NCBI RefSeq assembly: GCF_003024685.1
Contig: NZ_PYLQ01000003.1
Coordinates: 124,001-188,000, forward strand
Direction of reading: 5' to 3'
Source: Faecalibacillus intestinalis
Lineage (GTDB): Bacteria; Bacillota_I; Bacilli_A; Erysipelotrichales; Coprobacillaceae
DNA length: 64,000 nt
Shown piece by piece: positions 41,721-61,990 of this stretch. The number at the start of each line of letters is the position of its first letter. Position 1 is the stretch's first letter. The position numbers were made by a program, and so were the translations under genes. The notes beneath the pieces are model-generated. The model saw only the letters and a list, made by a program, of their open reading frames with translations. It was not told where the DNA came from and did no database searches.

Positions 41721-42365
41721 TTGTTTGTGAAAAAGGTTATAATTAACACTTTCAACGATGACGTTGATAAAAATGCGTACATGAATTGGAGATTAAATCA
41801 TCATGAACCAATTCAAAATATGATAGTTATGGCTGATGGATACATGACAAGTGTTATAGTAAATGCAAAATCATGTTTAGAAAATACTTTTGATAAAACA
41901 GCTGACATCTTAATTTTTCCTATGTTTTTTTCACTTAATCAAGGTATTGAATTATATTTAAAATCTATTTGCTGGTCTTTGAACATTTTATTAAATTACA
42001 AGTCAAAATATGGAAAGAATCATGATATAAGAAATATTTGGTTTTTAGTAAAAAATAAAATTAACGAATTTGGATTCAATGAAGAGAGACCTGAAGATTC
42101 TTTTAATAAAATGGTCAAGAATATTGAACCTTATCTAAATGAACTTGCCAATTATTTAAAAAAAGATAACATAAATGATTATCATCATAATATAGATTTT
42201 AGTCGTTATCCTGTAAATAATAGAGATGAATATCATTTTTTTGTCAATCAATTTGACAATGTAACAGTAGATTTAGAAGTTATAAAAAAATTTGCTACAC
42301 AGATTAATGGAGATTTAAAGTGCTTAACAGATTACTACTATGGGTTGGTAGTTGAAAGCTGGTAG
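41721..42365 (+). CDS. Unclassified 214-residue protein inside the BREX operon
   Basis: An extra gene between pglX and pglZ. The product is soluble and helical; the segment FFSLNQGIELYLKSICWSLN followed by KYGKNHDIRNIW resembles the layout of HEPN-type proteins (amphipathic helix, then a basic/His motif NHDIR), but the match is too weak for a firm call. AGGAGG (41711-41716) lies before two candidate starts, TTG 41721 and GTG 41727. It ends 31 bases before pglZ and is in the same operon. Type I BREX operons often carry one accessory gene at this place; this one is not among those I know. Confidence 0.65.
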   Translation: MFVKKVIINTFNDDVDKNAYMNWRLNHHEPIQNMIVMADGYMTSVIVNAKSCLENTFDKTADILIFPMFFSLNQGIELYLKSICWSLNILLNYKSKYGKNHDIRNIWFLVKNKINEFGFNEERPEDSFNKMVKNIEPYLNELANYLKKDNINDYHHNIDFSRYPVNNRDEYHFFVNQFDNVTVDLEVIKKFATQINGDLKCLTDYYYGLVVESW

Positions 42366-45088: not shown

Positions 45089-47128
45089 ATGACAGATAGA
45101 GAAGAATTAAAACAAAAACTACGTGATAATTTTGCTGGTAAGATAGTAAGAAAAGATTTAACTAAAAAAATCAAAGAAGGAGCTAATGTTCCCGTCTATG
45201 TGTTGGAATTTCTTCTTGGTAAATATTGTGTATCAGATGATGAAGATATCATTGAGCGAGGAATTAGTAAAGTGAAGAAAATATTAGAAAAAAATTTTGT
45301 ACGTTCCGATGAAGCACAAAAGACTTTATCGATTTTGCGCTCAAAAGGATTTTATTCAGTTATTGATAAAATCACAATCAATTTAAATATCAAAACTGAT
45401 ACATATGAAGCAGAGTTTTCAAATTTAGGTATTAAAAATATACCAATTTCAGCCGAATATCCTGAAAAGTATGATCGATTATTATCAGGTGGTATTTGGT
45501 GTATGGTTCAACTTGAATATGATTATAATGAAGAAGATAAAAAATCAAGTCCTATTAAGATTGCTAAATTGAATCCAATTCAAATGCCGCATGTTGATAT
45601 TAATGAATTAAAAGAAGGACGAAAAGCTTTTACCAAAGAAGAATGGATAGACATACTTCTCCGTTCTATTGGTATGGAACCAGATGAATTAACAGAAAGA
45701 GAAAAATGGTTATTATTACTTCGTTTAGTACCATTAGTAGAAAATAATTATAATTTGTGTGAATTAGGTCCTAGAAGTACTGGTAAATCACATATTTATA
45801 AAGAAATATCGCCAAATAGTATCTTAGTTTCTGGTGGTCAAACGACAGTAGCAAATCTTTTCTATAATATGGGTAAAAGAACAATTGGTTTAGTTGGATT
45901 ATGGGATTGTGTAGCTTTTGATGAAGTTGCAGGAATTAGGTTTAAAGATAAAGACGGTATTCAAATTATGAAAGATTATATGGCATCAGGATCCTTTGCA
46001 AGAGGAAAAGAAGAAAAATCAGCTAGTGCTTCAATGGTTTTTGTTGGCAATATTAATCAAGATGTTGATATATTATTGCAAACTTCTTCGCTATTTGATC
46101 CATTTCCTCCTGAAATGGGAATGGATACAGCTTTTTTAGATCGTATTCATTGTTATTTACCTGGTTGGGAAGTGCCTAAATTTAGACCTGATCATTTTAC
46201 TGATGATTATGGATTTATTACTGATTATTTTGCTGAATTTATTAGAGAATTAAGAAAGACTCAAGAAAGCGATGCCTTAGATAAGTATTTTAAATTAGGT
46301 AAAAACTTAAATCAAAGAGATACGATTTCAGTTAGAAAAACAGTATCAGGATTAGTTAAATTGATTTATCCTAATGGTAAATATGACAAAGAAGAATTAG
46401 AAGAAATTATCCGAATTGCTTTAGAAATGAGAAGACGTGTTAAGGAACAATTAAAGAAGATAGGCGGAATGGAATTCTACGATGTTAATTTTTCATATAT
46501 TGATAATGATACATTTGAAGAAAAGTATGTATCAGTACCAGAACAAGGTTCTAGTACTTTAATTCCTGAGGGAATTTGTAATCCAGGACATATTTATACT
46601 GTTTCAAGTGGTAAATCAGGCATGATTGGTTTATTTAGATTAGAAACACAAATATTACCTGGCAATGGTAAATTGACATGCAACGGAATTGGTAATGATA
46701 GAGAAGCCAGAGAAAGTACTCAAAATGCTTTTAATTATTTAAAAGCAAATAGTAATAGAATAAGTCAATCAATAAGTACAACAACTAAGGATTATATTAT
46801 TCAGTATCAAGACTTACAAGGTATTGGTATGACAAATAAATTATCTTTACCAACATTGATTGCAATATGTTCAATTGCTTTAACAAGACCAACACTTAGT
46901 TCATTAGCAATATTAGGTGATATTAGTGTTAGTGGAACTGTCTCAAAAGTTGATAATTTAGCTAATACATTACAAGTATGCTTGGATTCAGGAGCAAAAA
47001 GGGTTTTGTTACCTATTACATCAGCTGGTGATTTGGGTTCAGTTCCTCCTGAACTTGTTGGATGCTTTAATTTGATTTTCTTTAATGATGCAGAAGATGC
47101 TGTTTTTAAAGCATTGGGGGTGGAATAG
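45089..47128 (+). CDS. brxL: BrxL, BREX Lon-like ATPase/protease-fold protein
   Basis: A 679-residue BrxL. The AAA+ part has Walker A GPRSTGKSH (about 227-235) and a Walker B-like LWDCVAFDEVAG; the N-terminal DUF4357-like/BrxL-specific region begins LKQKLRDNFAGKIVRKDLTKK. The C-terminus is a Lon-protease-type domain (ALTRPTLSSLAILGDISVSG, then GAKRVLLPITSAGDLGSVP). BrxL is now known to be a DNA-binding, MCM-like hexameric ring in some systems, acting on phage DNA replication. It closes the core type I operon. AAGGAGG precedes the ATG. Confidence 0.95.
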   Translation: MTDREELKQKLRDNFAGKIVRKDLTKKIKEGANVPVYVLEFLLGKYCVSDDEDIIERGISKVKKILEKNFVRSDEAQKTLSILRSKGFYSVIDKITINLNIKTDTYEAEFSNLGIKNIPISAEYPEKYDRLLSGGIWCMVQLEYDYNEEDKKSSPIKIAKLNPIQMPHVDINELKEGRKAFTKEEWIDILLRSIGMEPDELTEREKWLLLLRLVPLVENNYNLCELGPRSTGKSHIYKEISPNSILVSGGQTTVANLFYNMGKRTIGLVGLWDCVAFDEVAGIRFKDKDGIQIMKDYMASGSFARGKEEKSASASMVFVGNINQDVDILLQTSSLFDPFPPEMGMDTAFLDRIHCYLPGWEVPKFRPDHFTDDYGFITDYFAEFIRELRKTQESDALDKYFKLGKNLNQRDTISVRKTVSGLVKLIYPNGKYDKEELEEIIRIALEMRRRVKEQLKKIGGMEFYDVNFSYIDNDTFEEKYVSVPEQGSSTLIPEGICNPGHIYTVSSGKSGMIGLFRLETQILPGNGKLTCNGIGNDREARESTQNAFNYLKANSNRISQSISTTTKDYIIQYQDLQGIGMTNKLSLPTLIAICSIALTRPTLSSLAILGDISVSGTVSKVDNLANTLQVCLDSGAKRVLLPITSAGDLGSVPPELVGCFNLIFFNDAEDAVFKALGVE

Positions 47129-47194: not shown

Positions 47195-47458
47195 ATGTTA
47201 GATAGTATTAATACTAAAAGAAAAAGTGATGATTTTGAAGAAAAAATAAAGGAAGTGTATGATAAATATTGTGAGATGGATATAGACGAAAAGTATTTAG
47301 AATTATGGAATTCTTTTGTGGAATTAATAGAATATATTCAACAAATTGATTCGGGAAATGAAATGTCTGCTTCTGAAGCGATTAATTTAATGAAGGAATT
47401 GGGTATGTCTAATGATGATTTGAAAGATTTATTAATGGCAAGTATGAAAAATGGATAA
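47195..47458 (+). CDS. Small acidic helical protein after brxL
   Basis: An 87-residue acidic protein I do not recognise. It is entirely helical in pattern (DFEEKIKEVYDKYCEMDIDEKYLELW) with an end ASEAINLMKELGMSNDDLKDLL that resembles a small DNA- or protein-binding helix-turn-helix. AAGGAG precedes the ATG. Its last eight bases overlap the FRG-domain gene, so the two are translationally coupled. That pairing suggests either an antitoxin-like partner or a regulator of the FRG protein, as inferred from order only. Confidence 0.6.
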   Translation: MLDSINTKRKSDDFEEKIKEVYDKYCEMDIDEKYLELWNSFVELIEYIQQIDSGNEMSASEAINLMKELGMSNDDLKDLLMASMKNG

Positions 47459-48332
47459 AAAAAAGATTACTAGTGTTTCAAACTTTATTGAAATAATTGA
47501 GCAATTTCAGTCTAAAAATCTTTTAGGGCAAATTTATTATCGAGGACAACACAACGGACTCAAACAAAATTGGAAATTAATACCATCATTTTATAGAAAA
47601 AAGAAAACACATGAGAGAATACCGTTCTATAATGATTTAAACGAGGAATTGAATAGTATATATAAATTTGTTGAAAAAAATGTAGATTATTTTAATAATA
47701 TTGATTTTAGTGATATTATAAGTATATTAAATATTTTACAACATTATGGTTTTCCTACAAGAGTATTGGATGTGACAAATAATCCATTAGTGGCATTATA
47801 TTTTGCTTTAGAAAATATTGAACCTACTGACAATCCGGTTGTTTATCTTATTAAAAGTAATAAATGTTATTCTGGATATTTTACAAATCAAATGCTGAAT
47901 GATTTTTATTATGAAGAAAAAGTCAAAGACAAAGTTGTAATGGTCAATGGAAGTGTGTTATCTGACAGAATTAAGAATCAAAAAGGTGATTTTATTCTTT
48001 TTTTTGAAGAAGAAGATATTCATTCTATAGAAAATTTCAGGATAGAAGAAATTTCTATAGAAAAAGCTGCACTAAAAAAGATAAAAAAAGAATTAGACAT
48101 TCTAGGAATAAATAAGAGTACTATTTATCCTTCTTTGGAGGAGGAATCCACAAAATTCACAGCATTGTTAGATAATTCTGAAGAAGAATTTATTAAAATG
48201 GCAAAGTATTTTAATTTTGGAATAAACAAAGCTAATAATGTTATAAAAAATGATCTCAACAAAAATAGAAAATATCTAAAAAAGCCTGGTGCTATTGCTA
48301 CAATTAATACAAAAAATCGAAAAAGAAAATAG
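47451..48332 (+). CDS. FRG-domain protein
   Basis: A 293-residue protein with an FRG domain at the N-terminus (about 20-125): IYYRGQ, WKLIPSFYRK, ILQHYGFPTRVLDVTNNPLVALYFAL. The domain is named for its F/RG residues, is found across defence islands and resembles ADP-ribosyltransferase-like folds; the activity is not established. The C-terminal half is Lys-rich. It directly follows and overlaps the small acidic protein gene at the end of the BREX operon. It is a probable accessory defence effector. Confidence 0.8.
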   Translation: MDKKKITSVSNFIEIIEQFQSKNLLGQIYYRGQHNGLKQNWKLIPSFYRKKKTHERIPFYNDLNEELNSIYKFVEKNVDYFNNIDFSDIISILNILQHYGFPTRVLDVTNNPLVALYFALENIEPTDNPVVYLIKSNKCYSGYFTNQMLNDFYYEEKVKDKVVMVNGSVLSDRIKNQKGDFILFFEEEDIHSIENFRIEEISIEKAALKKIKKELDILGINKSTIYPSLEEESTKFTALLDNSEEEFIKMAKYFNFGINKANNVIKNDLNKNRKYLKKPGAIATINTKNRKRK

Positions 48333-51257: not shown

Positions 51258-51296
51258 TTATTGTTTTATCTTAAAAAATATGATAAGTTTAATCCA

Positions 51297-51383
51297 TGGG
51301 AATGAGGTTCTCCCTCGATTTATATCGAAACCGCTATTTGGCTAATGACTTCTGTGTAATACACAGGGTGATTAGCTTTTTTT
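51297..51383 (+). promoter_or_regulatory. Fluoride riboswitch (crcB motif) with terminator
   Basis: The leader matches the fluoride aptamer: GGGAATGAGGTTCTCCC (51298-51314), a hairpin CGAT/ATCG, AACCGCTATTTGGCTAATGACTTCTG. The 3' part of the aptamer doubles as a terminator, GCTAAT (51341-51346) with ATTAGC (51371-51376) followed by seven T. Fluoride binding would hold the aptamer fold and let transcription continue into the ClC genes 12 bases downstream. Confidence 0.92.
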
Positions 51384-51395
51384 GTAGGAGGAAAC

Positions 51396-52034
51396 ATGGA
51401 AAATAAAAAAGAATTATTAAAGTATATGATATTTGCAGGTGTTATGGGAATCGTTGTAGGAGGTATTGATACTGTTTTTGGTAAAGGACTTATTTTAATA
51501 GGTGAGATACGAAATAAATATTTTTGGTATTTAATTCCTTTTTTACCAATTGCAGGAATAGTGATTACTTGGCTTTACTATCACTTTAATGAACTGAGTT
51601 TAAAAGGAATGACACTTGTCTTTGAAACAGGTCAACAAAAAAGAAAAGGGATTCCTTTAGCACTTATTCCTTTAGTTATGATTGGAACATGGTTAACTCA
51701 TTTATTTGGAGGAAGTGCAGGTAGAGAAGGGGTGGCTGTACAAATTGGAGCGACGCTCTCTCATTATTTTACAAAATATTTTCATTTTCCTAAGAATGGA
51801 AAAGTTTTGTTGATTACCGGAATGGCAGCTGGATTTGCTGGATTATTTCAAACACCACTTACTGCTTTGTTTTTTGCTATGGAAGTTATGGTTATAGGTA
51901 AAATAGAGTATGAAGCTTTACTTCCAGGGGTTATAGCATCTTTTACTGCTTCTTATACGTCACATTTTTTAGGATTGGAAAAGTTTAGTGTAAATATTCA
52001 ACAAAGTATTAATATGAATGATTTAAAAATATGA
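51396..52034 (+). CDS. ClC-type fluoride exporter, N-terminal frame
   Basis: A 212-residue frame that covers the first half of a ClC antiporter of the fluoride-exporting branch. It includes the GSAGREGVAVQIGATLSHYF motif and a run of membrane helices, then ends in SINMNDLKI-TGA. The rest of the protein follows in the -1 frame. It lies directly behind a fluoride riboswitch, so the cargo is surely fluoride. The frame stops at an ATGA shared with the next frame. Either both halves associate, or frameshifting at T TTA AAA gives one polypeptide, or the gene is frameshifted and dead. Confidence 0.88.
   Translation: MENKKELLKYMIFAGVMGIVVGGIDTVFGKGLILIGEIRNKYFWYLIPFLPIAGIVITWLYYHFNELSLKGMTLVFETGQQKRKGIPLALIPLVMIGTWLTHLFGGSAGREGVAVQIGATLSHYFTKYFHFPKNGKVLLITGMAAGFAGLFQTPLTALFFAMEVMVIGKIEYEALLPGVIASFTASYTSHFLGLEKFSVNIQQSINMNDLKI
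52020..52034 (+). promoter_or_regulatory. Candidate -1 frameshift heptamer T TTA AAA in the ClC gene
   Basis: Zero-frame codons GAT TTA AAA ATA TGA contain T TTA AAA (52022-52028) in the right phase for a -1 slip. Slipping gives TTT AAA AAT ATG ATG, the frame of the C-terminal half. No Shine-Dalgarno-like element or strong hairpin is seen around it. Confidence 0.5.
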
Positions 52035-52582
52035 TGTTAATGATTCTAGTAGGAATTATTTTGGGAATTGTTGGAAGAATATTTTCAACGTCGTTGAGTG
52101 CTTTAAAAACATTTTTTAAAAATAAAATAGAAAATCCCTATAAAAGAATAGGTTATATTTCTATTTTATTGGTGATAGGGCTAATGATTTTTAAAGGAAG
52201 ATACAGTGGCTTAGGCACAAATTTAATTGATTTATCATTTTATGGAAATGTGACTTATTATGATTGGTTTTTAAAACTTATTTTTACTGTTGTAACTCTT
52301 GCAATTGGATTTCAAGGTGGAGAAGTAACACCCTTATTTTCAATAGGAGCAACTCTAGGATTTATACTTGCCCCAATTTTTCATTTGCCTATTGAATTAT
52401 GTGTAGCTTTAGGATATACGGGAGTTTTTGCTTCAGCAACAAATACACTTTTAGCACCAATGATGATAGGTTTAGAAGTCTTTGGTGGGCATCAAATGAT
52501 AGCATTTCTTATTATATGTATTTTTTCTTATTTAGTTAATGGAAATAAATCTATATATACTGCCCAAATCAAAAATTTCTAA
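52031..52582 (+). CDS. ClC-type fluoride exporter, C-terminal frame
   Basis: A 183-residue frame with the second half of the ClC protein: helices starting MILVGIILGIVGRIF, the motif GGEVTPLFSIGATLG and the end ASATNTLLAPMMIGLEVFGG. The sum of both halves (~395 residues) equals a full-length fluoride ClC. Its ATG overlaps the stop of the N-terminal frame (ATGA), so it could be made by coupled re-initiation, although it lacks a ribosome site of its own. Functional ClC proteins are homodimers of complete chains, so frameshift synthesis is the more natural way. Confidence 0.85.
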   Translation: MMLMILVGIILGIVGRIFSTSLSALKTFFKNKIENPYKRIGYISILLVIGLMIFKGRYSGLGTNLIDLSFYGNVTYYDWFLKLIFTVVTLAIGFQGGEVTPLFSIGATLGFILAPIFHLPIELCVALGYTGVFASATNTLLAPMMIGLEVFGGHQMIAFLIICIFSYLVNGNKSIYTAQIKNF

Positions 52583-54999: not shown

Positions 55000-55259
55000 A
55001 GATAATTATTTTAGAATTTAAATCTGATACACAATTATTAATTGAAGGAAAAAATTTAAATGAAGATGAAATTAGTGAATACTTTACAACACATTTTAAG
55101 GGAGATTGCTTATTAGCTGTTGGAGATGATGAATTGATTAAAATTCATTTTCATACAAATGAACTATAGAAGGTTTTAGAATATTGTTCAACACTTGGTG
55201 AAATCTATGATATTCTTATTGAAGATATGGATCGACAATCAAGAGGATTAAAAGGATAA
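55000..55259 (+). pseudogene. Remnant of a DAK2/FakA-type kinase, C-terminal part
   Basis: In one frame: LLIEGKNLNEDEISEYFTTH, LLAVGDDELIKIHFHTNEL, TAG (55167-55169), KVLEYCSTLGEIYDILIEDM. This matches the C-terminal domain of fatty-acid-kinase/DAK2 proteins (family pattern VVGDDELIKVHVHTN). The N-terminal domain is missing and the frame has a stop, so it is a decayed remnant. Confidence 0.7.
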
Positions 55260-55280
55260 AGATGCGAAAGCATCTTTTTT
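55260..55280 (+). terminator. Intrinsic terminator before the Wadjet operon
   Basis: AGATGC-GAAA-GCATCT followed by TTTTTT (55260-55280). Confidence 0.9.
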
Positions 55281-55353
55281 AAGTTATTAAAAAATGTTAT
55301 AATTGCAAAGCTATTTATAAATAAAAAAGAGTTTTTAATGATTGGAGGTAACC

Positions 55354-56706
55354 ATGGTTAATATATTTGATACATTACCAAGAAACTTTTTTAATATATT
55401 TAATACAGCTGATCGTGTTGTTATCAGTGAATGTATTTGTGTTCTTTATGAGTATATTAAGGATGATGCATCCTTTGCATCTTTAAAAGAAAACTTGATT
55501 TATGAGTTAACAAAATATTTTAGTAGTCACTTAATTGAACTTGAAGAACTTCAAAGTCAATCGCCAAGAGAACGTGCTTTTTATGTTTATCGAAGATTAA
55601 AAGAATGTGGTTGGTTGAGTGAAGAAGTAGGGGAAAACTATCATGTGTATGCTAGTTTTGAAGATTATGCTATTAGTATTATTGAAACTTTAATGAATTT
55701 AGAAGAAGACAGAGACATAGAATACTCAAGTATGGTTTATAGTATTTATTCGCAGTTTAAAAATTTTGATATTGAAAATGGACATAAGATTCTTGATGCA
55801 CAATATAGTATGACAAAAAGTTTAATGACAAAATTAAAAAATTTGAATACAAATATTAAGCGTTATATCAAACGTCTTGTTCAAGATAATATGAAAAATG
55901 ATTTAAATCAAATTTTAGATTCTTTATTAAGTGATTATCAATTAAAGATAGTAGATCGTGCTTTTTATAATCTAACAACTAAAGATCATCCTTTAAAATA
56001 TCGTAATAGTATCATTTCTCAAATTCAAAGAATACAAGATGATCAAGCAACATCTGAAACAATTATAGGAAATATCATGCTTTCTAAAGATTTAACTTAT
56101 CAAGAGGCAATGGATTTGTTTTATAAACAAACATCTTATATTATTGATGCCTTTGAAAGTATTTTAGATTTAATTAATGAAATCAATCGTAAAAATGAAA
56201 AGTTTGTTGCTTCAGCAACAAATCGTATTATGTTTTTAATGAATGTAAAAGAAGATATTGGTGGAAAAATCAATGACATCATTAAAGAAGGGCAAGAATG
56301 TCCAGAAGTGTTTGATCAAGTAGCAACGATTTCAATTAATAAATACTTAGATCAAAATTCTTTATATTTACCACGACAAATAAAAAAAGTTAAAAATACG
56401 GATTTGATTTTAGATACACAATTAGATGAACAAACACGTTTAATGGCGATTGAAAAACTAAAACAAAATGAAAAATATACAAAAACAGCCATTGAAAAAA
56501 ATGTTTTACAATGTTTGGATCAACAAGAAACAATATTGGGTTCAAATTATTATGATCAAAATAAAGATTTATCTTTATTTATTTTGACATGGCTTTATGG
56601 TTATAGTCAAAATGCTCTATATAAAATAGAACCACAAGAAAATATTATAAAGAAAGATCATTATCAATTTAGAGAATTTATAATAAGGAGAGTTGAAGAT
56701 GAATAA
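55354..56706 (+). CDS. jetA: JetA, Wadjet kleisin-type subunit
   Basis: A 450-residue, mainly helical protein matching the JetA family (possibly the DUF5716 type). It begins NIFDTLPRNFFNIFNTADRVVIS, has SQSPRERAFYVYRRLKECGWLSEE with winged-helix-like character, and a long coiled-coil middle, as expected for a MukF-like kleisin. In Wadjet, JetABC forms an SMC-type loop extruder that recognises small circular DNA and JetD cuts it (established). ATG 55354 has GGAGG with good spacing. Overlaps jetB. Confidence 0.9.
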   Translation: MVNIFDTLPRNFFNIFNTADRVVISECICVLYEYIKDDASFASLKENLIYELTKYFSSHLIELEELQSQSPRERAFYVYRRLKECGWLSEEVGENYHVYASFEDYAISIIETLMNLEEDRDIEYSSMVYSIYSQFKNFDIENGHKILDAQYSMTKSLMTKLKNLNTNIKRYIKRLVQDNMKNDLNQILDSLLSDYQLKIVDRAFYNLTTKDHPLKYRNSIISQIQRIQDDQATSETIIGNIMLSKDLTYQEAMDLFYKQTSYIIDAFESILDLINEINRKNEKFVASATNRIMFLMNVKEDIGGKINDIIKEGQECPEVFDQVATISINKYLDQNSLYLPRQIKKVKNTDLILDTQLDEQTRLMAIEKLKQNEKYTKTAIEKNVLQCLDQQETILGSNYYDQNKDLSLFILTWLYGYSQNALYKIEPQENIIKKDHYQFREFIIRRVEDE

Positions 56707-57337
56707 AAATGAACTGATGAAAAATATGTCACAGGCATATTTGTTATTATCTGAAAAAAGAAAAGAAGAATTTTCACGTATTTTAAATCGGTTATTAGCG
56801 GTTAATTTTATTTGTGGTGGAAGAAAAAGAGATCGCGAAGATTATTATTTTATTAGTGAAAATGAACAACTATTTAAAGATTTTTTAATGATGCTTGATT
56901 ATGATTTTCATTTATATAAAGCAGACCGTGTAATCTATATCCATAATTTAAATAATTACAATCATTTAAATCTTAATCAAATGCAAACAATTGTTTTATT
57001 GTTACTTAGAAAACTTTATTTTCAAAAATCACAAGAGTTACAAGATACTGAATTTATTCATATTTCCCTTGGGGAACTTCATAGTGAAATAGAAGCAACT
57101 GGTATTTATAACGAACGTCTAAAAAAGACAGATTTAAAAAATATCTATCATTTCTTGTCAAGGTATAATATATGTGAACGTATTGGTGATTTAAACGAAG
57201 ATGATACACGTTTAATTATTTATCCAACAATTAATTATATTTTACCAATTCAAAAAATTGATGAAATCAATCAACGTATTCAACAATATAAAAAAGGAGA
57301 TCACGATGAAAACATTAACGAAAGTGAAACTGATTAA
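56699..57337 (+). CDS. jetB: JetB (DUF4194-like), Wadjet subunit
   Basis: A 212-residue protein matching the MukE-like JetB subunit. It reads RKEEFSRILNRLLAVNFICGG, DYYFISENEQLFKDFLMMLDYDF and contains the winged-helix body with FIHISLGELHSEIEATGIYNE. It starts eight bases before the jetA stop and ends 32 bases after the jetC start, so the three are translated together. In the complex JetB pairs with JetA and bridges the JetC arms (family knowledge). Confidence 0.9.
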   Translation: MNKNELMKNMSQAYLLLSEKRKEEFSRILNRLLAVNFICGGRKRDREDYYFISENEQLFKDFLMMLDYDFHLYKADRVIYIHNLNNYNHLNLNQMQTIVLLLLRKLYFQKSQELQDTEFIHISLGELHSEIEATGIYNERLKKTDLKNIYHFLSRYNICERIGDLNEDDTRLIIYPTINYILPIQKIDEINQRIQQYKKGDHDENINESETD

Positions 57338-60300
57338 TTGGCATACTTTTTCTAATGAAGAATTTGAAATCTATAAAAATGCCTTAATTACTGGAGAAAA
57401 TGGAACAGGGAAATCTACAATTTTAGATGCGATTCAATATGTTTTAACTGCTGGTAAATGTAAATTTAATAAAGCAGCAAGTGATATTGGAAATCGTACA
57501 TTAGAGTCTTATATTCGTTGTAAAACAGGAATTGAAGGGCATGAATATGCTAGAAATGGTGATGTGACAACCTATATTGCATTAGAGTTTTATGATGAAA
57601 AAACAGAAAAATATCAAATTATTGGAACTGTTATTGATTTACCAGCTGGCGGAAGATTAAATAGAGATTTTTTTCAAATTATTGATTGTAAAATCAGCGA
57701 TGTAGCATTTATTGAAGAAAGAAGAGTTTTGACGAGAAAAGAATTTAAAAAAGCTTTAATTGATCATCAACAAACAGGTATTTTTAAAGATACAATTAAA
57801 GAAGGAGAAAGTTTATTTGGAAATGCTTTAGGTGTTAAAAGTAAATATTTTGATTTAGTAACGAGAGCACTTGCTTTTAAAGCGATTGATAATGTTTATC
57901 AATTCATTGTTGACTTTTTATTAAAAGAAGACTTTGTTGATATTCAAAATTTAAGAGACAGTATCAAACACTATAAAGTTCTTGAAGAAAAATTAAAAAT
58001 ATCTAAAAAAGAATGTGAATCATTAGAAGGTGTTGTAAGTCAATATGACACTTATTTAGATACGCACTTTCAAATGGATGTTTTAGAATGTTTAAAAGAG
58101 AAATTACAAGAAAAGCAATTACAAGCTATTATTGATAATAGTCAAAAGAAATATCAAAAAATAAATGATCAACTCAATTTTGTACAACAAAAACTTACAC
58201 AATTAAATCAAGATGAAGAAACTTATCAAGAAAGATATCATCGTTTAGATGAATCATTAAGAGAAAACGAAACCTATAACTTAAAAAATGAATTACAAAA
58301 AGAAAGTGAACAACTCAAAAAAGAAAAAGAAAAAAAAGAAAACAGTTATCAAACTCTTATAACAGAAATTAAACAAGAAATACAATTATTAAAGAAAGTA
58401 AAAATACCAAATAGTTATATCCAAATTCTTCAAAATCAAGATTATCAAACAGAAACATTGACACATGCATTTAGAAATATTGTAGAAGAAGTTTCTAAAA
58501 GAACAAAGGATGTTACTGAAAAAATATCACATTTAAAAATTGAAATGACACAAACAGTTGATCGTTTTAATGAATATTGTAAAGAATATGATTCTCTTAA
58601 AGAAAATCAACTTTATTATAGAAAAGAAATTCAAGAATTAATTCAATTATTAAATGAAAAACTTACAAGTCATTATGGAAAAATAATTGAAGTTAAACCA
58701 TTATGTGAATATATTGAAGTTAAAGATGAAAAATGGCGAAATGCATTAGAAGGATATCTTAATAGTCAAAGATTTGATTTAATTATTGAACCAGAATATT
58801 TTGAATATGCATTACTTGTTTATGAAGAATATAAAAATAAAAGAGGTATATATGGTGTAGGAATTGTTGATGTTGCGAAAATGTCAAGATATGAAGATGT
58901 GGATGTTAAAGACACACTTGCAAGTCAATTAGATTGTAAAAATACATATGCTAGATGGTATGTCAACATGTTGCTTTCTAAAGTACAATGTGTCGATGAT
59001 GTTACACAACTTAGAAATTATGCTACAGCGATTACGCCAACATGTATGCTTTATAAAAATTATACAGCACGTGCAATCAATCCACGTATTTACAATAAAC
59101 CATACATTGGATTAGGTGCTATTAAAATTCAATTAGCGACAATTGAACAAGAATTGGAAAACCTAAAACAAGAAATCAAATTACAAAAAGCAAATTATGA
59201 AGATTTAAAAAATGGTCAAGCATTATTAAATCAATCCAAAGCAGATCATATCTTCTATCGCTTAGATTTAATTGATGAATATCATAATTTACTAAAAGAA
59301 TATCAAGAAATTAATGATCGCTATGAAAAATTAATTTTAGATGATTCACTTATTTCTTTACAAGAAGAATGTGATGCAGTAAAAAAACAACTTGAAAAAA
59401 CAAAAAGAGAAAAAGAAGACTCACTTATGAAAAAAGGAAGTCTTGAAAATAATCTAGAAACATTTAAAGAACAACTTGAACAAACGCAAGAAGAATATCA
59501 ATTATTACATGAAAAAATAGTTCAATTTGAAATGGAGCATGTTGATGTTACTCAAGTAGCTGATCAACAAGTCGTTATTTATTTAAAACGTTTTTCTAAA
59601 GATTTTAATGGTATGAAAAATGATATTGAACAACAAGGAAATGGTTATCAACGAAAGGCAAACCAAATTGAAAATCAAATAGTCATGAAAATGAAAGATT
59701 ATAATGATGATTATAATATTGGTTTTGAAAATGCTTTAACAGATATTGAAAGTTATAAACAAAGATACCATCAATTAAAGGAGATGGATATTGTTTCTAA
59801 AGAAGAAAAAACAAGACAAGCAAAACTTAAATGCGAGGAATCTTTTAAAACATCTTTTATTTCTGGATTAAATGAAAAAATTGAAAATGCTAAAAAAGAT
59901 ATTGCTGAATTAAATAAAGGATTAGCACAAAGAGATTTTAATGGTGAAACCTATGAATTCTGTGTTTCACCAACTTCAAGAGATGATTTTAAAGAATACT
60001 ATAAGATCATCCAATCAGGAAAAGAATATATGGTGAATAATCTTTTATCTGAAACATTAAGTGAAAGTCAAAGAAGAATTATGGATGATTTATTTGTAAA
60101 ATTATCATCTGTAGAAAATGATCAAGAAACTGAACAAATGCTCATGGAATATACAGATTATCGAAATTATTTAGATTATGATATTAAAATCAAATATGCA
60201 AGTGGAGATTATGCATATTTTTCTAAAGTTAATAAAGAAAAATCTGGTGGAGAAACACAAACACCATTCTATGTCATTATGGCAGCAAGTTTTGAACAAG

Positions 60301-60542
60301 TTATTCGTAATAGAAATCAAAATGAAGATTTTGGTTGTGTCGTTATTTTTGATGAAGCATTCAATAATATGGATGAACAAAGAATACAAGAAATGATTAA
60401 GTTCTATAATGAACGTGAAATACAAACATTTATTGCTGTACCACCTTCAAGAGCAGGTACAATTATTCCTTATGTTAATACAAGATTGCTTGTCATTAAA
60501 CAGGGACAACAATCTTTTGTCGAAGGATTTAGAGATGAATGA
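57306..60542 (+). CDS. jetC: JetC, Wadjet SMC-like ATPase
   Basis: A 1078-residue SMC-type ATPase. Walker A GENGTGKST (30-38) is near the N-terminus, long coiled coils (about 230-450 and 600-860) flank a hinge-like middle, and the C-terminus has the signature KSGGETQTPFYVIMAA and Walker B CVVIFDEAF. It extrudes DNA loops with JetA and JetB. ATG 57306 with AAAGGAG is chosen over an upstream in-frame start inside jetB. The ending overlaps jetD by eight bases. Confidence 0.95.
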   Translation: MKTLTKVKLINWHTFSNEEFEIYKNALITGENGTGKSTILDAIQYVLTAGKCKFNKAASDIGNRTLESYIRCKTGIEGHEYARNGDVTTYIALEFYDEKTEKYQIIGTVIDLPAGGRLNRDFFQIIDCKISDVAFIEERRVLTRKEFKKALIDHQQTGIFKDTIKEGESLFGNALGVKSKYFDLVTRALAFKAIDNVYQFIVDFLLKEDFVDIQNLRDSIKHYKVLEEKLKISKKECESLEGVVSQYDTYLDTHFQMDVLECLKEKLQEKQLQAIIDNSQKKYQKINDQLNFVQQKLTQLNQDEETYQERYHRLDESLRENETYNLKNELQKESEQLKKEKEKKENSYQTLITEIKQEIQLLKKVKIPNSYIQILQNQDYQTETLTHAFRNIVEEVSKRTKDVTEKISHLKIEMTQTVDRFNEYCKEYDSLKENQLYYRKEIQELIQLLNEKLTSHYGKIIEVKPLCEYIEVKDEKWRNALEGYLNSQRFDLIIEPEYFEYALLVYEEYKNKRGIYGVGIVDVAKMSRYEDVDVKDTLASQLDCKNTYARWYVNMLLSKVQCVDDVTQLRNYATAITPTCMLYKNYTARAINPRIYNKPYIGLGAIKIQLATIEQELENLKQEIKLQKANYEDLKNGQALLNQSKADHIFYRLDLIDEYHNLLKEYQEINDRYEKLILDDSLISLQEECDAVKKQLEKTKREKEDSLMKKGSLENNLETFKEQLEQTQEEYQLLHEKIVQFEMEHVDVTQVADQQVVIYLKRFSKDFNGMKNDIEQQGNGYQRKANQIENQIVMKMKDYNDDYNIGFENALTDIESYKQRYHQLKEMDIVSKEEKTRQAKLKCEESFKTSFISGLNEKIENAKKDIAELNKGLAQRDFNGETYEFCVSPTSRDDFKEYYKIIQSGKEYMVNNLLSETLSESQRRIMDDLFVKLSSVENDQETEQMLMEYTDYRNYLDYDIKIKYASGDYAYFSKVNKEKSGGETQTPFYVIMAASFEQVIRNRNQNEDFGCVVIFDEAFNNMDEQRIQEMIKFYNEREIQTFIAVPPSRAGTIIPYVNTRLLVIKQGQQSFVEGFRDE

Positions 60543-61728
60543 TTATCGTCAATTGATCTTAATAGAGTTTATTAATCGTTATGAAAATAGTAGTTACTAT
60601 AAAGGTAAAAGCGATGGTCCAAGGAAAATATCTATTGTATTGCATAAAAGATTTCCAGAATATGGACAAAGCTTCTTTTATGAAATTACTGAAGAACTAG
60701 AAAATATATCTTTTCAATTAAAAGAAGAAGGAATAGTTACTTTTTCTAAGAAAAGTATTCCAGGAAATAGAGAAATAATTTTAAATCAAGAAGAAAGCAG
60801 TATTAAAAAAATATATCAGGAACTTAAAAGAGTCTCAATTAAAGAAAAAATAATGAATTATCTACATCAGCTTGATGAATATCATGTAGAAGGATTTGTG
60901 AAAGACTTTATAGATGAAATGAAAAAGAAAATCATGCATGATCAAAGTCTTTCTCCTTATTTAAAAAGTTATGATTTAGAAGATTTAGATTCTGTTATAA
61001 AAATACTTAATGGAATGTATTATCAAGATGAAGAAATTTCATTTAGAAAATTTTCTGAGAAAATATTAAATGATACTAAGAAATTAATAAAGTATAAAAA
61101 AAGAATATTACATATTGTACATGATTTTTATGATGATTCTTTAGAAAATGAAGATGAGGTCTTTGAAACTTTTTACATTAGAAAGAATCCAGCTTATGTT
61201 TACATTAGAGGAAATGCTATTTTTAAAATTAATAATCAACTGATTGATTTAAAACAAATGAAGCAATATTTTGTTTTACCAAGTTTATGTATTAAAGATT
61301 TAACAATTCAAAATATTGATGCAAAACAAGTAATGACAATTGAGAATTTAACATCTTTTCATGATCTTTCTTTAAATGATAATTTTTATATTTATACAAA
61401 TGGTTTTCATAATCATGCGATTCAACAATTTTTAATAAAACTTTATGATTTTTTAGGTGATGAAGTGAATTATCTTCATTTTGGTGATATTGATGCTGGT
61501 GGTTTTCATATATATAACGATTTGTGTAAAAAGACACATATTCCTTTTCAAACGTACCATATGGATGTAGATACGTTAAAAAAATATTATATATATACAA
61601 AGAAATTAACTAAAAATGATAGAAAAAGATTAAAATCTATGAAAAATAATGAAGTTATTACTTACATGTTAAAAAATAATGTCAAGTTAGAACAAGAAAT
61701 AGTAGGAGATAGCTTTAATGAAAGGTGA
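60535..61728 (+). CDS. jetD: JetD, Wadjet nuclease subunit
   Basis: A 397-residue protein, JetD. The N-terminal region (about 1-180) is a winged-helix/DUF3322-like domain, and the C-terminal domain (about 270-397) has a toprim fold of the topoisomerase VI type (DUF2220-like) with VNYLHFGDIDAGGFHIYNDL, where the two Asp residues bind the metal. It cuts the plasmid DNA caught by JetABC. ATG 60535 inside the end of jetC is the coupled start. The full set jetABCD is present and unbroken, so Wadjet is likely active. The type is probably III-like, to be confirmed. Confidence 0.93.
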   Translation: MNDYRQLILIEFINRYENSSYYKGKSDGPRKISIVLHKRFPEYGQSFFYEITEELENISFQLKEEGIVTFSKKSIPGNREIILNQEESSIKKIYQELKRVSIKEKIMNYLHQLDEYHVEGFVKDFIDEMKKKIMHDQSLSPYLKSYDLEDLDSVIKILNGMYYQDEEISFRKFSEKILNDTKKLIKYKKRILHIVHDFYDDSLENEDEVFETFYIRKNPAYVYIRGNAIFKINNQLIDLKQMKQYFVLPSLCIKDLTIQNIDAKQVMTIENLTSFHDLSLNDNFYIYTNGFHNHAIQQFLIKLYDFLGDEVNYLHFGDIDAGGFHIYNDLCKKTHIPFQTYHMDVDTLKKYYIYTKKLTKNDRKRLKSMKNNEVITYMLKNNVKLEQEIVGDSFNER

Positions 61729-61990
61729 AACACTAATACGTTTAGAAAGTTTACAGAAGATTGTCTTTCATTCACTAGCTAATTTGGCTAAATCTATATC
61801 TATAGAGACAAGCAAACTTTAAGAATGCTACCAATGGGATGATAATAATTACGATTTACAGCAGATAAAAAAAGAATTAGCAGATGTGATTATTTATTGT
61901 CAAGATTTATTGGATTGATTAAATCTAGATGTAGATGAAATTGTTCAAATGAAAATGGTAATGAATGAAAAGAAATATCCAATTAAATAA
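61718..61990 (+). pseudogene. MazG-like nucleotide pyrophosphohydrolase remnant
   Basis: Starting at an ATG that overlaps the jetD stop, one frame reads LANLAKSISIETSKL, TAA (61820-61822), ECYQWDDNNYDLQQIKKELADVI, TGA (61916-61918), and LNLDVDEIVQMKMVMNEKKYP to the final TAA. This matches the MazG-like fold of small house-cleaning enzymes that hydrolyse NTPs (metal site around ECYQW and KKELADV). The two stops are the only defects; there is no frameshift. The overlap suggests it once belonged to the Wadjet operon. Confidence 0.85.

Follow-up and report, generated by a model that had tools for sequence, protein, structure and literature searches.

A complete type I Wadjet operon with a variable jetD front in Faecalibacillus intestinalis

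Four genes that follow one another in the genome of Faecalibacillus intestinalis raise the question of whether they make up a working plasmid-defence system of the Wadjet family, to which Wadjet type they belong, and what their closeness to a BREX operon says about their origin. The stretch of DNA that we analysed, here called the window, comprises 64,000 nucleotides of contig NZ_PYLQ01000003.1 (positions 124,001 to 188,000 of the forward strand), and all coordinates below are those of the window. By the reading of open reading frames, jetA, jetB, jetC and jetD are four consecutive intact frames, all on the + strand, that span 55354-61728. The overlapping starts that a preliminary description of this DNA had seen in a complete jetA-jetD operon are there, with overlaps of 8 nt (jetA/jetB), 32 nt (jetB/jetC) and 8 nt (jetC/jetD), so that translation of the four genes is likely coupled. 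The features on which the argument draws are the following.

55258-55277, + strand: terminator-like hairpin with a T run on its 3' side, between the upstream gene remnant and jetA (terminator scan)
55343-55350, + strand: Shine-Dalgarno-like GGAGGT 5' of jetA (sequence reading)
55354-56706, + strand: jetA, ATG start, 450 aa, kleisin-like subunit, DUF5716/JetA
56699-57337, + strand: jetB, ATG start, 212 aa, KITE (MukE-like) subunit, DUF4194
57306-60542, + strand: jetC, ATG start, 1078 aa, SMC-like ATPase
57393-57419, + strand: JetC Walker A GENGTGKST, residues 30-38 (G30, G35, K36, S37 and T38 invariant)
60243-60254, + strand: JetC ABC signature SGGE, residues 980-983, invariant
60351-60356, + strand: JetC Walker B D1016-E1017 (IFDEAF), invariant
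60535-61728, + strand: jetD, ATG start, 397 aa, CAP-toprim nuclease subunit
60535-60960, + strand: variable 5' part of jetD, N-terminal domain, about the first 140 codons (interspecies identity)
61342-61344, + strand: JetD toprim Glu270 (IEN motif), invariant in 30 JetD
61486-61494, + strand: JetD toprim Asp318-x-Asp320 (GDIDAGG), invariant in 30 JetD
61718-61990, + strand: MazG-like pseudogene that begins inside the 3' end of jetD and is disrupted by small indels and two in-frame stops

The hairpin at 55258-55277 and the GGAGGT before the jetA ATG together suggest that the jet operon may have its own start. Terminator-like sites number five in the region against 0.8 expected, and a promoter scan of the region gave a result no better than chance.

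We compared the four proteins with the PADLOC and Pfam profiles. JetA matches PADLOC JetA1 at E 8.9e-89 and Pfam PF18982 (JetA) at 9.4e-81, JetB matches JetB1 at E 3.4e-69 and PF13835 (DUF4194) at 6.9e-23, JetC matches JetC1 at E 0 with 1089 bits (its Pfam matches are SbcC_Walker_B and AAA_29), and JetD matches JetD1 at E 1.1e-106 and JetD_C (PF09983) at 6.2e-19. The PADLOC E-values exclude a chance match, and the top PADLOC model is of type I for every one of the four proteins. Hence the identification of JetA, JetB and JetD as Wadjet proteins, on which the preliminary description depended, holds for all four Jet proteins with the type I models best, and at the level of sequence the stretch 55354-61728 is confirmed as a complete type I Wadjet operon of the ordinary kind, another member of a known family.

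The catalytic motifs are retained. Over 13 relatives of JetC, the Walker A, signature and Walker B motifs are all invariant, as had been stated for the single sequence. The toprim Asp residues credited to JetD (D318 and D320) are, together with E270, likewise unchanged in a set of 30 JetD proteins, drawn from the order plus a single Lachnospiraceae genome, in which a C-terminal EQE is invariant too. When a profile built from the 13 JetC relatives is run against the PDB, it finds solved JetC (8as8 and entries related to it) at 5e-37, in an alignment that covers almost the full length. A single-sequence search of the PDB gave no match of the window's JetD to a solved JetD, identity to the studied systems being too low, and family-profile searches of the PDB with JetA and with JetD found none. 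The predicted model of JetD (pLDDT 89, built on 12 relatives) has as its top fold match MksG of Corynebacterium glutamicum (8b7f, 3.8e-10), with Topo VI-A and Spo11 next; the TM-scores of 0.35-0.42 are modest, which a simultaneous comparison of two flexibly linked domains would lead one to expect. In MksBEFG of that organism MksG corresponds to JetD, although it comes from another host phylum and is 13% identical to the window's JetD over the aligned part.

With the type I JetABCD systems of Bacillus cereus Q1 and Escherichia coli GF4-3, the window's operon has in common the gene order, the domain make-up, the ATPase motifs, the toprim Glu and Asp-x-Asp, and a JetC of near 1100 aa; identity to these systems is low, and the likeness is known here from sequence and predicted fold. 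An IFDR motif at the JetB N-terminus, described through cross-linking work on a studied system and not type-defining (PMC10586767), is not visible by eye in the window's JetB. In studied systems JetABC is a dimeric DNA-extruding SMC motor, and on a small circle extrusion is completed, the motors collide and JetD cuts (PMC10586767; PMC12287153; PMC12647877). In Clostridium cellulovorans, a native Bacillota host, deletion of jetABCD has been used to study the uptake of conjugative plasmids (PMC12287153). By analogy with these homologues, we consider it very probable (about 0.95) that the window encodes a functional type I Wadjet, in which an SMC motor extrudes small circular DNA for JetD to cut. 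The kleisin JetA, the KITE protein JetB and the SMC ATPase JetC would assemble into a dimeric motor that extrudes DNA loops; if the DNA is a small circle, both motor units would bring extrusion to completion and meet, and their meeting would activate the CAP-toprim nuclease of JetD, by which the plasmid would be cut. For this host, complex assembly, extrusion, cleavage and plasmid restriction are what we infer from the homologues.

The same SMC-kleisin-KITE core is found in the MukBEF and MksBEF condensins, and one could therefore read the operon as a Muk-like condensin (MksBEF) that organises the chromosome, with JetD secondary or functionally lost. Indeed, JetC resembles MukB, to which its C-terminal head aligns in the PDB search, and MksBEF is thought to have arisen through JetD loss (PMC10586767). 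However, MukBEF and MksBEF are without a nuclease subunit, whereas the window has a conserved and intact jetD that overlaps jetC, keeps an open frame and conserves all catalytic residues, and the JetC profile outscores that of MukB by a wide margin, so that we regard a condensin as very improbable.

Similarly slight is the chance that the Wadjet was recently inactivated or is decaying, like its broken neighbours (mazG, the FakA-like fragment and CLC). Pseudogenes do flank the operon on both sides, and JetD has diverged faster than its partner Jet proteins, but all four jet frames are full length with their motifs intact, and synonymous changes dominate in comparison with the sister species (dN/dS 0.06-0.18 for jetA-C and 0.2-0.33 for jetD). 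Across five congeneric genomes the four jet genes are likewise open, with dN/dS of 0.04-0.33, which indicates that the operon is kept by selection. In a plasmid-burden survey of the family, one of 43 genomes, which carries Wadjet, had Rep3, and none of the 43 had Rep_1, whose control was silent too, so that these counts carry no weight for or against function.

Type II and type III Wadjets have traits of their own, such as a DUF2398 JetB and a JetC of about 1360 aa. These are not seen here, the JetC of 1078 aa fitting type I, and despite weak secondary matches to PADLOC JetB2, JetC2 and JetD2 (E 7e-5 to 1e-10) an assignment of the operon to either type can be dismissed, as the E-values of the type I models are lower by tens to hundreds of powers of ten and DUF5716/PF18982 is present in JetA.

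Within the family, JetD matches occur in 14 and JetA matches in 15 of the 43 genomes surveyed, and Wadjet is present in five of the six genomes of the genus, the sixth being 72% complete. A scan of public genomes with JetD returned one distant locus only. An apparent closeness of jetC in another genome (G243, 77%) was discarded, because its contig ends within jetC and only the conserved end was compared. The operon lies 3' of the same M20 peptidase gene in three species, namely that of the window and the two sister species G013 and G012, and on its 3' side are DUF969/DUF979 genes, which lie close by in the window and in G013 and are separated from it by an insertion of 34 kb in G012; in two other genomes (G015 and G016) the jet operon is at another place.

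Upstream of jet, the window holds a BREX operon (BrxA, BrxB, BrxC, PglX, PglZ and BrxL). The distance of about 7 kb given in the preliminary description is fair: brxL ends at 47128, 8.2 kb before jetA, and the FRG-domain gene that follows it ends at 48332, 7.0 kb before jetA. BrxL has no real match in the five other genomes of the genus, where we observed at most a weak match of about 150 C-terminal residues inside other frames of about 780 aa. Since Wadjet occurs in five of six genomes, and at the same place in three species, while BrxL is confined to the window within the genus, BREX and Wadjet are neighbours with separate histories. The view of Wadjet as a second defence system in the region thus stands in that BREX is real and lies beside it, and falls in so far as the two would form one co-acquired island, BrxL being absent from the congeners; their closeness is no evidence of shared origin. 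The FRG-domain protein (47451-48332), directly after brxL, matches PADLOC candidate PDC-S15, and within the BREX operon a 214-aa frame that sits between pglX and pglZ (41721-42365) has no PADLOC match.

Several other genes lie between BREX and jetA. A fragment resembling the N-terminal part of phage integrases (49960-50397, below the Pfam cut-off) may be what remains of an earlier mobile element. A fluoride riboswitch (RF01734) and the CLC channel gene that it precedes lie at 51289-52582; the gene is split into two overlapping frames and hence probably encodes a fluoride exporter that has suffered a frameshift. The interval from the M20 peptidase gene to jetA contains what is left of a FakA-like middle domain (55002-55258), interrupted by an in-frame stop; its counterpart in G013 is open and 83 aa long.

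On the other side of the operon, the MazG-like frame matches PF12643 at 1.8e-8 with its stops masked, and the gene is intact in G013 (99 aa). We considered MazG as a fifth Wadjet gene, since in the window, as in one of the sister species, its start lies within the end of jetD, yet elsewhere in the family it is away from jet. The idea was also rejected because the window's copy is broken and that of G012 is split, and in the literature searched no paper names MazG and Wadjet together. The MazG-like gene is a neighbour, outside Wadjet. In G012 it is interrupted by a 34-kb element (contig C24, about 95136-129470; L030, L031), so that residues 5-47 are encoded immediately 3' of jetD and residues 47-99 about 34 kb downstream. 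Among the genes of this element are those of two predicted tyrosine recombinases and of a type I restriction-modification system, besides other large genes; repeated related proteins bearing an N-terminal hydrophobic segment lie at both ends, and the gene order presumably resembles that of Tn554-type elements.

Within the operon, conservation is uneven. Over the first 140 or so codons of jetD, the window and two of its congeners share about 50% amino acid identity, against 79-92% for jetA-C. Between G013 and G012, JetA, JetB and JetC are 93%, 96% and 94% identical, while JetD is 52% identical over residues 1-160 and 87% over the rest. In blocks of 20 codons, nucleotide identity between these two species stays at 90-98% through the final 200 codons of jetC (about 97% at the jetC end) and is 55-77% and mostly 55-68% over the first 140 or so jetD codons, and 82-97% beyond; the same step is seen for the window against both G013 and G012.

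Changes in codons for conserved amino acids are more frequent in the jetD 5' part than in jetA-C in two of three pairs (0.28 against 0.16, p 0.01, and 0.49 against 0.27, p 0.0002), the third pair giving p 0.16; the counts are small and the p-values optimistic, as the cut at codon 140 was picked after the profile was seen. Four-fold sites alone give no clear sign of raised change. The excess of changes in codons for conserved amino acids speaks for a diverged allele having taken the place of the jetD 5' part, in G013 if nowhere else. Nine independent pairs were compared as well, and in most of them JetD is less conserved in its N-terminal part than elsewhere (p 0.012), which may be no more than the usual weaker constraint on a domain without a catalytic role. 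The jetD 5' data would fit diversifying selection, recombination and relaxed constraint alike. A search of 395 genomes of the class, G013 not among them, for a donor of the window's jetD 5' part gave as its best match the sister species G012, at 49%. That the N-terminal, CAP-side domain of JetD is in this genus an exchangeable or fast-diversifying module, swapped between alleles and perhaps escaping plasmid-borne Wadjet inhibitors, is a speculation that we hold to be rather unlikely, and no paper on such inhibitors was found in the literature searched. If the module were truly exchanged, it would mark where plasmid counter-defences act on Wadjet.

The fast-changing front of jetD is the sole mildly unusual detail of an otherwise normal family member. 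The operon adds one more well-formed type I Wadjet, from a low-G+C Bacillota-like lineage, and if it is active, the strains that carry it would be hard to transform with small plasmids, which would be relevant to anyone engineering them.
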